In this document: piece after piece, positions 1 to 5,358 of the stretch
Layout of the letters: each line of letters starts with the position of its first letter
How positions within the stretch are numbered: the stretch's first letter is position 1
Assembly (NCBI GenBank): GCA_020436935.1
Contig: JAGQWX010000049.1
Span: 1 to 38,954, forward strand
Length of the DNA: 38,954 nucleotides
Source: Saprospiraceae bacterium
GTDB lineage: Bacteria; Bacteroidota; Bacteroidia; Chitinophagales; Saprospiraceae
Reading direction: 5' to 3'
The notes under the pieces: model-generated
Told to the model about the DNA's origin: nothing
The model's database searches: none
Seen by the model: the letters and a program-made list of their open reading frames with translations, nothing else
Made by a program: the position numbers and the translations under genes

Positions 1-75
1 CATTTGGCTAATGGTTCCCGTTGGCCGGCCCATTGAGGACTTCCACCTCTTAGGTTTTGAACATGCATGGCACAC
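1..75 (-). mobile_element. 5' end of a class C group II intron (cut by window edge)
   Basis: Read on the minus strand from position 75, the sequence begins GTGTGCCATGCATG, fitting the GUGYG 5' consensus of group II introns. It continues with a small stem GAGG-tggaagt-CCTC (36-50) and then a CATTAGCC stretch. The order and spacing resemble domain I of the class C intron from Oceanobacillus iheyensis, which starts GUGUGCC..GCAUG, has a GGG-ugagagu-CCC stem and then GUUAGCC; this comparison is from memory. Class C introns typically insert just downstream of intrinsic terminators, and here the intron would start two bases past the U-tract of the ftsZ terminator. The ribozyme core, any reverse transcriptase ORF and the 3' end lie outside the window, so completeness is unknown. 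Confidence 0.7.
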
Positions 76-76
76 A

Positions 77-107
77 TAAAAAAAGCCCCGGTTGACAGAC
101 CGAGGCT
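77..107 (-). terminator. Intrinsic terminator of the ftsZ end of the dcw cluster
   Basis: On the minus strand AGCCTCGGT (107-99) pairs with ACCGGGGCT (92-84) around a six-base loop. The stem is nine base pairs with one U-G wobble, and a run of seven T (84-78) follows directly. It lies about 140 bp past the ftsZ stop and faces the same way, so it most likely ends the division-gene transcript. The complementary strand has a C-A mismatch in the stem, which supports minus-strand use. Confidence 0.85.
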
Positions 108-247
108 CCAATAAACCAATCTCAATCTTATTAGATGAGAATATAAATAAATAGACGAAAGCAAATTAAAAAGGCTGCCGCTCTGATGATCACAGCAAAA
201 AATTGATTCAGTTATGAACAACAGCCGTTGCTCTTTCGCCCTTAAGG

Positions 248-1678
248 CTAATCTGCGTCTTCGTAAATGAAAGAATTGCCCGTTTGTACTACTGTACCTT
301 CTTCATCGACATAAATACTGGTGCTGGTTCTCCCAACAGGTATTTTGATCTTGTCTTCGTCGAGCTTAGTACCTCTTCTGAGGTAAGCTGGTACTTTTTC
401 TGCGTTTTCCAGTGCTTCCGGATTATCGAGAGGCACTGTCGTGCTGCTTCTGAGATATTGCAATCTGGCTGTTTCTGCCTCAATGTATTTCTCCTTGTCC
501 TGTGATTCCTTTTTGGCAACAAATGGATCTGTATGGTAAGGATTTTTCCTGCTCATGGCTTCGGCGCTCTCTCTGATGTCTTCATCATCGAAATCAAAGG
601 TACGTGCGTGTGCACTTGCATTGTCATTGATGGTGAATGTATTCATTTCTGCAACATCCTCAAAATCATCGGACAGAGGCACCTTGATTTCCTTTGGCTC
701 CTCCTTGAATTCTTTTTTTGCGCCTGCTGCAAAACCTGTAGCAATCAAGGTGATGCTCAACTTGTCACCCAAGCTTTCGTCGATGCAGTTACCCCAGATC
801 AGGTCGGTACCATATCCGGCTTCTTCCTGAACATAGTCCATGATTTCACCAATCTCATCCATAGATACTTCCTTAGCACCTGAAGTAATGTTGAGCAAAA
901 TGTGTTTGGCTCCCCTGATGTCGTTGTCTTCGAGTAAAGGTGAATTGAGCGCCATGCTGATCGCCTTTCTTGCTCTGTCTTCTCCTTCAGAAATACCAAT
1001 ACCCATCAGCGCAACGCCACTGTCTCGCATCACAAAGTTGACATCTTCAAAATCCACGTTGACATATCCGGGTACAGTGATGATTTCTGCTATAGCTTTT
1101 GCCGCAGTATTCAATACATCGTCTGCATTGGAGAATGCAACTGAAAGCTGAAGGTCTCCATGGATTTCTCTGATCTTATCGTTGGAAATCACAAGGATGG
1201 CATCGACATTCTTTTTCAGATTTTCCAATCCTTCCAATGCATGTCTCTTCCTTCTTGCTCCTTCAAAGTTGAATGGCAAAGTCACAATGGCCACTGTCAA
1301 AATGCCCATTTCTTTTGAAGCTTTGGCAATGATTGGTGCTGCTCCGGTACCGGTGCCACCACCCATTCCTGCAGTGATGAAGAGCATTTTTGTGCCATCA
1401 TGCAAAAAAGAACGGACCTCGTCTATGGACTCAATACAAGCCTCTTTGCCTGTCTCCGGCTTCGATCCTGCTCCTCTTCCTTCTGTCAAAGATGGACCAA
1501 GCGGGATTTTGATTGGAACAGGGTGATTCTCGAGCGCCTGATTGTCTGTATTACAAATACCAAAATCTACGCCAACAATCCCCTGCTTGAACATGTGTGC
1601 AACTGCATTGCCGCCGCCACCGCCGACTCCCAACACTTTGATGATGGAGGTCTTATTTTTTTCTATATCGAATTTCAT
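248..1678 (-). CDS. ftsZ: Cell division protein FtsZ
   Basis: Tubulin-like GTPase that polymerises into the cytokinetic Z ring at midcell. The GTP-binding signature GMGGGTGTG is at residues 104-112, with the N-terminal GVGGGGGNAV loop at 17-26. The globular domain ends near residue 320 and is followed by an acidic, low-complexity linker. The peptide VPAYLRR (429-435) matches the conserved C-terminal peptide that binds FtsA in other bacteria, but a further 41 residues follow it, ending SFIYEDAD. At 476 residues it is longer than the roughly 380 of E. coli, because of the linker and this tail. It is the last gene of the cluster, 36 bp after ftsA, stops at TAG and is followed by an intrinsic terminator. 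No clear ribosome binding site precedes the ATG. Confidence 0.97.
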   Translation of the reverse strand: MKFDIEKNKTSIIKVLGVGGGGGNAVAHMFKQGIVGVDFGICNTDNQALENHPVPIKIPLGPSLTEGRGAGSKPETGKEACIESIDEVRSFLHDGTKMLFITAGMGGGTGTGAAPIIAKASKEMGILTVAIVTLPFNFEGARRKRHALEGLENLKKNVDAILVISNDKIREIHGDLQLSVAFSNADDVLNTAAKAIAEIITVPGYVNVDFEDVNFVMRDSGVALMGIGISEGEDRARKAISMALNSPLLEDNDIRGAKHILLNITSGAKEVSMDEIGEIMDYVQEEAGYGTDLIWGNCIDESLGDKLSITLIATGFAAGAKKEFKEEPKEIKVPLSDDFEDVAEMNTFTINDNASAHARTFDFDDEDIRESAEAMSRKNPYHTDPFVAKKESQDKEKYIEAETARLQYLRSSTTVPLDNPEALENAEKVPAYLRRGTKLDEDKIKIPVGRTSTSIYVDEEGTVVQTGNSFIYEDAD

Positions 1679-1714
1679 ATCTTAATCTATTTAATCGTCA
1701 ATTAACAAATAAAT

Positions 1715-3157
1715 CTACAGTTCGTGATCAGGGGTTGGTTCGAAGAAATCTTTGGTGTAAGAGCTGATTTTTCGTACAAACTTCATGAATTTTTTCTCCA
1801 TGGTTGGTTTGTATTCATCCTCTTCATCATCCTCAGATTCCTGCTGCTTCGAGACTGAATTGGCCAAAGCAGTTGCCTTGTTGGCCAGGACCGGCATTTC
1901 AGGTTCTTTTTCTACCTGCTCAACACCGGTGATCATGTCAATGCTGTACTTGCTGTCTTGTTTGTTGTTGTCGATTGCATATTTGAGCAACCCCACTGCT
2001 GTCGCATACATGGGTGATGCCAATTCTTTGTTGTATCCGTGCGCCAGATGCTCGATAGGCTCTCCGATCCTTGCGTGCATGCCGGTACAGAACTGTGCCA
2101 GATGGTCGATGTTTTTCAACAAAGCACCTCCTCCTGTGAGTACCATTCCTGCCTGAAGCTTTCTTTCAAATCCTGACCTTTTGATTTCAAACATGATGTA
2201 GTCGAAGATTTCTTCAACTCTAGCCTGGATGATTTTTGAAAGATTCTTCTCACTGATCGCTTTAGGCTCTCTGCCTTTCAGACCTGGTATAATGATCTTG
2301 CGGTTGTCGATCAGTTCGTCAGACAATGCTGAACCAAACTTCACCTTCAGCTTCTCTGCCTGGTCTGCCAATACGGTACATCCTTCCTTGATGTCTTCGG
2401 TGATGATGTTGCCACCAAATGGTATGACCGCTGTATGTCGGATGATGCCATCCTTAAATATGGTGATGTCAGTGGTGCCTCCTCCTATGTCTATGAGGGC
2501 CACACCTGCTTCTTTTTCTTCTGCGCTGAGTACTGCACTCGCTGATGCAATAGGTTCCAGGGTCAGATCTGCGATTTCAAGGCCGCCCTTCTCGATACAT
2601 CTCATGATGTTTTTTGAAGCGGTGATCTGTCCGGTGATAATGTGGAAATTGCCTTCGAGACGGTATCCTGCCATACCGATCGGGTCTGCAATGTCTTTCT
2701 CGTCATCGACGGTAAACTCCTGTGGAATCACGTGCAGAATCTTATCGCCGGGGGGCAATGGAATTCTGTACATGTCTTTGATTAATCGTTCGATGTCGGT
2801 ATTGCTGATTTCAGAGTTATGGTCGACGCGGGTAATGCGACCAAGGTTGTGAAGGCTCTTGATGTGTTGGCCTGCAATTCCTACATGTACAATTTTAAAC
2901 TTGAAGCCTGCTCCTCTTTCGGCGATTTCAACTGCCTCTCTGATGGCTTTCACCGTTTTGTCAATATTGACTACTACGCCACGGTTGACTCCTTCAGACT
3001 TAACAGTCCCGAAAGAAATGACTTCCAATCTTCCAAATTCATCCAGGGTACCTGCTATCGCACAGATCTTGGTAGTCCCAATATCTATGGCAACAGAAAC
3101 ACTTCCCGGATCGAGGTGTTTGTTTGTCATCTGTGAAAAAATTTTGCTGTGATACAT
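1715..3157 (-). CDS. ftsA: Cell division protein FtsA
   Basis: Actin-fold ATPase that tethers FtsZ to the inner membrane and recruits later division proteins. The phosphate-binding loop VAIDIGTTKICAIAG lies at about residues 22-36, the second nucleotide motif is ALIDIGGGTTDI and the adenosine motif is MVLTGGGALLKNI. A long acidic linker (SEDDEEDEYKP) precedes a C-terminal segment, KFVRKISSYTKDFFEPTPD, which would suit the amphipathic membrane-targeting helix. The listed start gives 480 residues and lies 11 bp after ftsQ; ATG at codon 10 (MTNKHLD, 3130) is also plausible because the first nine residues add nothing recognisable. It stops at TAG, 36 bp before ftsZ, in the usual ftsQ-ftsA-ftsZ order. 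Confidence 0.96.
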   Translation of the reverse strand: MYHSKIFSQMTNKHLDPGSVSVAIDIGTTKICAIAGTLDEFGRLEVISFGTVKSEGVNRGVVVNIDKTVKAIREAVEIAERGAGFKFKIVHVGIAGQHIKSLHNLGRITRVDHNSEISNTDIERLIKDMYRIPLPPGDKILHVIPQEFTVDDEKDIADPIGMAGYRLEGNFHIITGQITASKNIMRCIEKGGLEIADLTLEPIASASAVLSAEEKEAGVALIDIGGGTTDITIFKDGIIRHTAVIPFGGNIITEDIKEGCTVLADQAEKLKVKFGSALSDELIDNRKIIIPGLKGREPKAISEKNLSKIIQARVEEIFDYIMFEIKRSGFERKLQAGMVLTGGGALLKNIDHLAQFCTGMHARIGEPIEHLAHGYNKELASPMYATAVGLLKYAIDNNKQDSKYSIDMITGVEQVEKEPEMPVLANKATALANSVSKQQESEDDEEDEYKPTMEKKFMKFVRKISSYTKDFFEPTPDHEL

Positions 3158-3168
3158 ATTATTAATTA

Positions 3169-3942
3169 TTATAATTCTCCAATAACCTGCCCTTTATACT
3201 TAAGATTGATACCCCGGTACTTTTGCCAGCCTACCATCGGTATACCGTCTTTGTACATGCTTTTGAGGTTGTCAAACTTTTCTGTAATATTCTCTGCACT
3301 GCCAATCTTGATCTCCTGCCTTCCAATTTTTGGAATGAGCAGCAAGTCTTTTTCCTGGTTGACATCGATTTGTTCGACCAATGCTTCGATGAAAGGATCA
3401 TTCATGATTTCCTTTGCTGCGAGATAAACTTCCCTCAGCGTTGACGGCTTTTCACTCAGTAGACTTTCTTTGTCATATATGCCTATGTAGCCTGTAGCGA
3501 GTGGCACTCTTACTGCAACTCCTTTCCTCGTGGCAATTTTATCTCCGTCTTCATCGATGTAATAGCTAAAGTTGGCATCATCCACTACTCTTACGATGGG
3601 TTGTCTTTGTACCAGCCACACCGTCAGCTTGTTTTTAGAATCCAGAAATACTTCGGCTTTTTTCACCCGGTCATCTTTTACCAAAAACTCCTCCAACTCC
3701 GCCAGGTTGATTTCAGTCACTTTTGCCTCCCGGACATCATATCCAAGAAGTTTTCTGAAACCATCTTCTATTTCTTTATCACTTATGAGGTTTTTATCGC
3801 CTTTGATCGGCTTGATAAAAACGACCAGATCTTTGACATTGGCATTGCTTTTATGATGCACCGACATGACGAGCAGCACGCCGATACCCAGGAGCGCAAC
3901 CGCCCAGAGTATCCTGTTTCTGATTTGTGTCCAGTTTTTCAT
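3169..3942 (-). CDS. ftsQ: Cell division protein FtsQ (POTRA domain)
   Basis: Bitopic membrane protein of the divisome core, which with FtsL and FtsB links early cytoplasmic division proteins to septal wall synthesis. The short charged N-terminus is followed by one transmembrane helix at about residues 12-28 (LWAVALLGIGVLLVMSV), then a POTRA-like domain beginning near residue 37 and the FtsQ beta domain. The C-terminal strands GINLKYKGQVIGEL are typical. The length of 257 residues is normal. Sequence conservation is low in this family, so the call rests on topology and on its place between murC (24 bp upstream) and ftsA (11 bp downstream). Confidence 0.88.
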   Translation of the reverse strand: MKNWTQIRNRILWAVALLGIGVLLVMSVHHKSNANVKDLVVFIKPIKGDKNLISDKEIEDGFRKLLGYDVREAKVTEINLAELEEFLVKDDRVKKAEVFLDSKNKLTVWLVQRQPIVRVVDDANFSYYIDEDGDKIATRKGVAVRVPLATGYIGIYDKESLLSEKPSTLREVYLAAKEIMNDPFIEALVEQIDVNQEKDLLLIPKIGRQEIKIGSAENITEKFDNLKSMYKDGIPMVGWQKYRGINLKYKGQVIGEL

Positions 3943-3966
3943 ATTAGCAATCTGCTTTTTTTATCA

Positions 3967-5358
3967 TCATTTATGTTCAGATCTTTCGATCATCAATTCA
4001 ATCAATTCTTTGTGTTTGGTATCGATGTCCCCCGCGCCGAGGGTCAGCAATACATCATAATTTTTATCACGAAGACCTGCAATCAATTCGTCTTTGTTCA
4101 GTACACTAACCCGCGATTTCATTCTTTGGGCCAGGGCCTCTGAAGTTACTCCTTCAATGGGCGCTTCTCTTGCCGGATAGATATCGAGCAGCACTACTTC
4201 TTCAAAGCCATCCAGGGCCTCAGCGAACTCAGTCATAAAATCCTTCGTCCTGCTGTAGAGGTGAGGTTGAAATATCGCCAGAATCTTTTTGCCTCTGTAT
4301 GCTTCTTTCACCGCAGCACAAATCGCCATGATTTCTTCCGGATGGTGTGCATAGTCATCGATCAGCGTCGTTTTCTCACTTTCATACAGTCGTTCAAATC
4401 TCCTTTTCACTCCTTTGAAAGTAGAGAGGGCATTTTCAATCTTTTCTACTTCTACACCCGCAAAGCTTGCAGCCATGGCAGCAGCAGTTGCGTTGCATAT
4501 GTTGTGAATGCCAGGCAGTGTAAACTGCAATCCTTTCCACGTTGAGCCATCAGCCATCACCAGATCAAAAACCGGTTTTCCTCCAGGCAGATAATCCTTG
4601 ACTTCGATTTTCACATCGCATGCTTCATCAGTTCCAAAGGAAATGATATCCACATTTTTCTGCAAAAGCTGCATTTGCTCCTCAGAAAAAAATTTCAGTG
4701 CCTTGTCTCTGACCAGCAACTTCCCTCCTTTCTGCATCCCCATGCCAAATTCAAAAAAAGCCTCCGTGAATGCTTCCTGAGATCCGTAGATATCCAGGTG
4801 GTCGGCATCCATGGCGTTGATGATGGCAATTTCCGGGTGCAGGTGATGGAATGAACGGTCAAACTCATCGGCCTCTACCACAAGCCAATCTGAATTACCC
4901 AGGAAGTAATTGGTCTCATAACCTGCCAATATTCCTCCCAGAAATGCAGAGATGTCCACGCCCGAAGCTTTGAGGCAGTGTGCTACCACCGAACTCGTTG
5001 TCGTTTTGCCGTGGGTGCCCGAAACTGCAATGCATCGCCCTTCTTCAGAAATCAAACCCAGCAGTTTTGCCCTCTTGACTACCGGCAAACCCCTCGACCT
5101 TAGATTTTGTAAAATGGCCAGGTTTTCAGGTACCGCAGGAGTATAAACCACCAGGTCAATGTCAGCAACAGCATGTGCAACATTGTCTTCGTATATTATG
5201 TCAATTCCTTCACCGACCAACTTTCTGGTCAATGCCGTCTCCGTCTTATCATAGCCGGAAACCTTCACCCCTTTCAGGTTGTAATACCTGGCAAGGGCAC
5301 TCATCCCTATTCCCCCAATGCCTACAAAATAGACATGCTCATACTTACTGGTACTCAT
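3967..5358 (-). CDS. murC: UDP-N-acetylmuramate--L-alanine ligase MurC
   Basis: ATP-dependent cytoplasmic ligase that adds L-alanine to UDP-N-acetylmuramate, the first amino acid of the peptidoglycan stem. The N-terminal Rossmann motif FVGIGGIGMSALA is at residues 11-23, the ATP-binding Mur-ligase motif GTHGKTT at 114-120, and DDYAHHPEEI marks the central/C-terminal catalytic region. The length of 463 residues is standard. Its start overlaps the murG stop by 4 bp (ATGA), so the two are probably translationally coupled. ftsQ follows after 24 bp. Confidence 0.97.
   Translation of the reverse strand: MSTSKYEHVYFVGIGGIGMSALARYYNLKGVKVSGYDKTETALTRKLVGEGIDIIYEDNVAHAVADIDLVVYTPAVPENLAILQNLRSRGLPVVKRAKLLGLISEEGRCIAVSGTHGKTTTSSVVAHCLKASGVDISAFLGGILAGYETNYFLGNSDWLVVEADEFDRSFHHLHPEIAIINAMDADHLDIYGSQEAFTEAFFEFGMGMQKGGKLLVRDKALKFFSEEQMQLLQKNVDIISFGTDEACDVKIEVKDYLPGGKPVFDLVMADGSTWKGLQFTLPGIHNICNATAAAMAASFAGVEVEKIENALSTFKGVKRRFERLYESEKTTLIDDYAHHPEEIMAICAAVKEAYRGKKILAIFQPHLYSRTKDFMTEFAEALDGFEEVVLLDIYPAREAPIEGVTSEALAQRMKSRVSVLNKDELIAGLRDKNYDVLLTLGAGDIDTKHKELIELMIERSEHK

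Follow-up and report, generated by a model that had tools for sequence, protein, structure and literature searches.

Two insertion habits, at intrinsic terminators and at the attC sites of integrons, are described for class C (IIC) group II introns in PMC4424553, which names intrinsic terminators as insertion sites of these introns. Introns of types g6, U1 and U2 (names of one classification scheme) are found in nearly half of the cases directly after terminators, and their proteins branch near class C in the tree; effects of such insertions on host genes are limited, according to PMC8919778. The element found behind the ftsZ gene of a Saprospiraceae bacterium resembles the terminator-type IIC introns in its sense insertion right behind intrinsic terminators and in its many copies, as in its matches to a domain I–IV model, its domains V and VI, and a protein that among solved structures is nearest to the GsI-IIC reverse transcriptase. 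It differs from those described in that the Saprospiraceae sequence family has no name found in print, and the whole element is unassembled here. Introns of the attC type belong to the same class but insert at integron attC sites, whereas 11 of the 12 copies here sit at terminator-like hairpins. A literature search on group II introns, ftsZ and terminators gave, among the titles listed, none about such an insertion, and one on group II introns and Saprospiraceae retrieved nothing. The family was not found described in the literature searched; its kind is well known.

The window (38,954 nucleotides) is the entire contig C125 of an assembly of 5.8 Mb in 181 contigs, and the contig begins at window base 1. 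Features are listed in Table 1. The open reading frame is putatively called ftsZ from a reading of its translation; all 13 genomes compared, among them the own one, have a match to it, and G005, 90% identical, is the nearest relative as judged by this gene. At a probability of about 0.88, the segment at the window edge forms the 5' end of one copy of a class C group II intron, a mobile element, inserted in sense orientation directly behind the ftsZ intrinsic terminator. A group II intron start two bases after this terminator had been proposed in an earlier note on the sequence, and the spacing was confirmed and the identity supported: the GAGG/CCTC stem with its TGGAAGT loop and the ATTAGCC motif are present, and the same segment recurs at 11 other genomic places, more often than expected by chance.

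Table 1. Features at the edge of the window (positions in window coordinates)
Feature	Position	Strand	Basis and remarks
Predicted ftsZ, 476 aa	248..1678	-	Open reading frame; stop codon at 250-248; gene 5' of the terminator
Terminator hairpin, GCCTCGGT-CTGTCA-ACCGGGGC	85..106	-	8-pair core, 6-base loop
T-run of the ftsZ terminator, seven T	78..84	-	Sequence reading and terminator scan
AT, last bases of the 5' exon, spacer between T-run and intron	76..77	-	Sequence reading
Intron 5' end, domain I, class C-like group II, intron bases 1-75, begins GTGTGCCATGCATG	1..75	-	Found 11 more times in the genome; C115, the longest copy, runs on into matches to Rfam group-II D1D4 models

A simple terminator scan counts 11 pairs for the ftsZ hairpin, at 109-82. 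In window positions 1-4000 the same scan finds 2 terminator-like sites, versus 3.5 (sd 1.8) in shuffled sequences, and the hairpin alone does not exceed chance expectation. It is supported by its place 3' of ftsZ and by hairpins with T-runs at the equivalent place in G005 and in G004 (apparently isolate Bin_11_1), a genome of the same genus as the host. The region after ftsZ aligns between the window and G005 through the T-run.

The intron 5' end occurs in 12 genomic copies, window included, and the 11 others are 82–100% identical to the window segment in a search of the own genome. Ten of the 12 reach a contig end; the other two, in contigs C66 and C178, are diverged 5' remnants inside contigs, followed by other sequence. 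The ftsZ copy might likewise be a dead fragment, a short 5' piece only. This is improbable: over 82–83 bases the window copy agrees with that of C115 at 99% identity, and it stops at the contig end as repeats do, whereas the two remnants are 82–87% identical to it and contig-internal. The bases AT lie immediately 5' of the element in 7 of the 12 copies (by eye), and 6 to 9 T are counted in the final 12 bases before the element in all.

The junction of ftsZ and intron could in principle be an assembly chimaera, as C125 ends in a repeat and the genome is broken into many contigs. The same 5' end stands, however, behind 12 different upstream sequences here and behind 14 more in Bin_11_1, mostly after a T-rich stretch, and a chimaera is hardly credible. 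The picture is that of a terminator-targeting intron which multiplied in a Saprospiraceae genome, breaking the assembly, with ten contig ends in the 5' part of one family.

A check by covariance models, suggested in the earlier note, was negative for the window and positive for another copy. No Rfam match was obtained in the window, where the 75 intron bases reach no gathering score, because the model for domain I sets in at intron base 84 and the window stops at 75. The longest copy, C115, holds 472 intron bases before the contig end (1450-1921 of the fetched stretch L017); it matches RF02001 (group-II-D1D4-3) at 120.5 bits (gathering 32), starting at intron base 84, and, further along, RF01998 at 36.3 bits (gathering 35). 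Base pairs of the 5' part exhibit little covariation (term +0.94).

Nine contigs (C138, C133, C129, C122, C117, C104, C77, C143, C93) share one common 3' end, which comprises the 3' strand of domain V or more of this domain, followed by domain VI and CTACTCGAT, after which the flanks differ. C93 contains all of domain V and C143 almost all of it, and the other seven contigs start within it. Eight of the nine had first been seen as weak matches (E 0.15–0.51, search at a looser limit) at contig ends, and an apparent deficit of 3' ends disappeared once the common end was recognised. The nine-contig 3' end is joined to the 5' end of the window through one matched site (C33/C93, see below), similar numbers of contig ends (10 versus 9), and a like picture in G004. 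There, domain V matches are found on 14 contigs, 11 of which were read: C11 terminates in CTACTTGAT and the ten others in CTACTTAAT. No contig read in the own genome contains the whole intron. The 3' end first considered, on C113, C154 and C165, was rejected, being found in three contigs only and belonging to another intron family.

Domains V and VI can be folded in seven 3' regions, of which three belong to other families. Changes on both sides affect 14 of the 29 domain V/VI pairs, but the covariation term is small (-0.34), and for several pairs of domain VI two or three of the seven sequences lack complementary bases. The CGCC opening domain V is presumably a class C trait. At E values up to 0.1, the Rfam domain V model RF00029 matches neither the domain V of the window family nor those of the fetched stretches L077 and L149; in the whole genome it matches four other places.

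Other group II introns reside in the same genome. The family represented in C113 (47850-48200), C154 (21944-22074) and C165 (1-97) is distinct in domain VI and in the C-terminus of its protein, WWNAGSSHMNEAYPKKYF; C165 carries the 3' end of this second family at its start and the 5' end of the window family at its other end. Two further group II introns, on C130 and C40 (231-314), score above the Rfam cut-off, and what by eye seems to be a second, diverged copy of the intron end lies about 1.2 kb further on C130.

Of the intron protein, the own genome provides the last 108 residues, encoded on C93, which match GIIM at 34.3 bits and TIGR04416 at 22.9 bits, versus a cut-off of 300. A search for domain V and a reverse transcriptase, also put forward in the earlier note, succeeded in part on the other copies: domain V and domain VI are found at the 3' ends, together with the C-terminus of a maturase in C93, and the reverse transcriptase domain of the family was not found in the own genome, where the sole RVT_1 match belongs to the other intron on C130. 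A protein match to the C93 piece was obtained in 5 of 60 genomes searched, own included. One of these, G007, encodes a complete related protein, 49% identical to the 108-residue piece, which scores 137.5 bits with RVT_1, 65.1 with GIIM and 381 with TIGR04416. Compared with solved structures, the G007 protein reaches 378 bits with GsI-IIC RT (6ar1), 308 with 7uim, 114 with 6me0 and 112 with LtrA (5g2x).

These scores, which are those of a protein from a relative, point to class C, the best-supported class, in line with the assignment made from the window sequence, and the window intron is probably of the class C terminator-targeting type or of a type close to it. A type near class C (g6, U1 or U2) rather than strict class C has to be weighed, because PMC8919778 gives these types the same terminator habit; proteins near those of class C are ascribed to them there, and the protein of the window family is known from its last 108 residues alone. 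Set against the high score of the G007 protein with GsI-IIC RT, in a comparison that was made among proteins other than those of g6, U1 and U2, such a type is unlikely, and class C is the more probable reading.

Sites were called terminator-like if the 45 bases upstream fold at an energy of -8 or lower into a stem of at least 6 pairs, the stem ending at most 14 bases from the element, and if 6 or more of the final 12 bases are T; this definition was set only after the folds had been viewed. Eleven of the 12 own copies qualify, and the sole failure is the remnant in C178. In a control on the fetched DNA of the own genome (both strands, coding DNA included) 497 of 20,000 random places do so. This difference supports insertion behind terminators, the habit that the earlier note ascribes to class C introns. 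Of 14 copies in Bin_11_1, which are exact pattern matches (a search with the 5' part lists 16 places in that genome), 13 qualify. Among three further copies two do so, both in G011, and they count as one site, since their upstream 45 bases are identical; the third, from Candidatus Obscuribacter, has too few T.

By analogy with the known class, the intron body would encode a reverse transcriptase/maturase in domain IV, and occasional read-through of the terminator would transcribe the intron. RNA and protein may then splice and, by reverse splicing, enter DNA at further terminator hairpins. An intact terminator upstream would leave ftsZ expression nearly untouched by the copy.

A possible effect of the insertion on how the division operon is terminated had been proposed as well, and found no support. 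Altered ftsZ expression, for example through termination or mRNA stability, is favoured only by the position directly behind the ftsZ terminator; the terminator is complete, and both its hairpin and its seven T lie upstream of the intron. For 11 of the 12 copies in the own genome (C158 is the exception), a same-strand open reading frame of 60 aa or more terminates at most 700 bases upstream, these frames being mechanical calls, not gene-checked. Since 10 of the 11 copies other than the window also follow such a frame, ftsZ is not singled out. With the limited effect on host genes stated in PMC8919778, an influence on expression is very unlikely. Equally improbable is the proposal that read-through of the ftsZ operon supplies the intron transcript, which would couple intron mobility to cell growth and division, with the copy tuning the end of the ftsZ transcript. 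The insertion illustrates that such an element can adjoin a cell-division operon and leave genes and terminator untouched, a principle already known.

Sites free of the intron were found in relatives. G005 has no match to 480 bases of the intron 5' part; it keeps the ftsZ terminator, and beyond the T-run other sequence follows, without the intron. The ftsZ terminator of G004, read directly, is not followed by an intron either. The upstream flank of the C33 copy and the downstream flank of C93 both have their match on a single contig of G005, C145, where they follow each other in order. In C145 104 unmatched bases separate the flanks, and the corresponding own ends, intron omitted, add up to about 103 bases; divergence of the intervening bases prevents a precise placement of the insertion. 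The intron-free sites in G005 indicate past insertion or loss only.

Resumption of host sequence after the intron, which was also to be looked for, was thus seen for the C33/C93 copy and not for the ftsZ copy, the 3' partner of which was not found by either of two routes. The genes after ftsZ in G005 have as best match in the own genome 68% identity over 241 bases, on C102, and the 12 downstream flanks gave no blastn match in the post-ftsZ regions of seven relatives. The downstream flank of C138 has a counterpart on G005 contig C214, where 3.7 kb were compared with nine upstream flanks and gave no match to any of them. A plasmid collection queried with 130 bases returned no match.

A short class C-like intron is found in G011 on contig C180 (L077). 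It measures 654 bases end to end, lies behind a terminator and matches RF02001 at 131 bits. It has in common with the window family the first 13 bases, GTGTGCCATGCAT, the domain V/VI sequence and the position behind a terminator, and differs in its small size, which leaves no room for a reverse transcriptase gene. The class C-like copies of C180 and of C128 in G011 share the 45 bases upstream; one of the two is too short for a protein gene, and the other adjoins a protein piece with an internal stop. The pair may have arisen by duplication, or may represent a single locus in two strain variants.

A related intron resides in another phylum, in a Candidatus Obscuribacter metagenome-assembled genome (JADYXS010000107.1, 2721-3568 of L118). 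It features the same first 14 bases, matches RF02001 at 122.8 bits, and is preceded by a hairpin with few T; by our own reading, most of its reverse transcriptase is missing. In G005, the nearest relative, four tandem units of 181 bases lie closely behind the ftsZ terminator on contig C235 (651-1401 of the fetched stretch L070).
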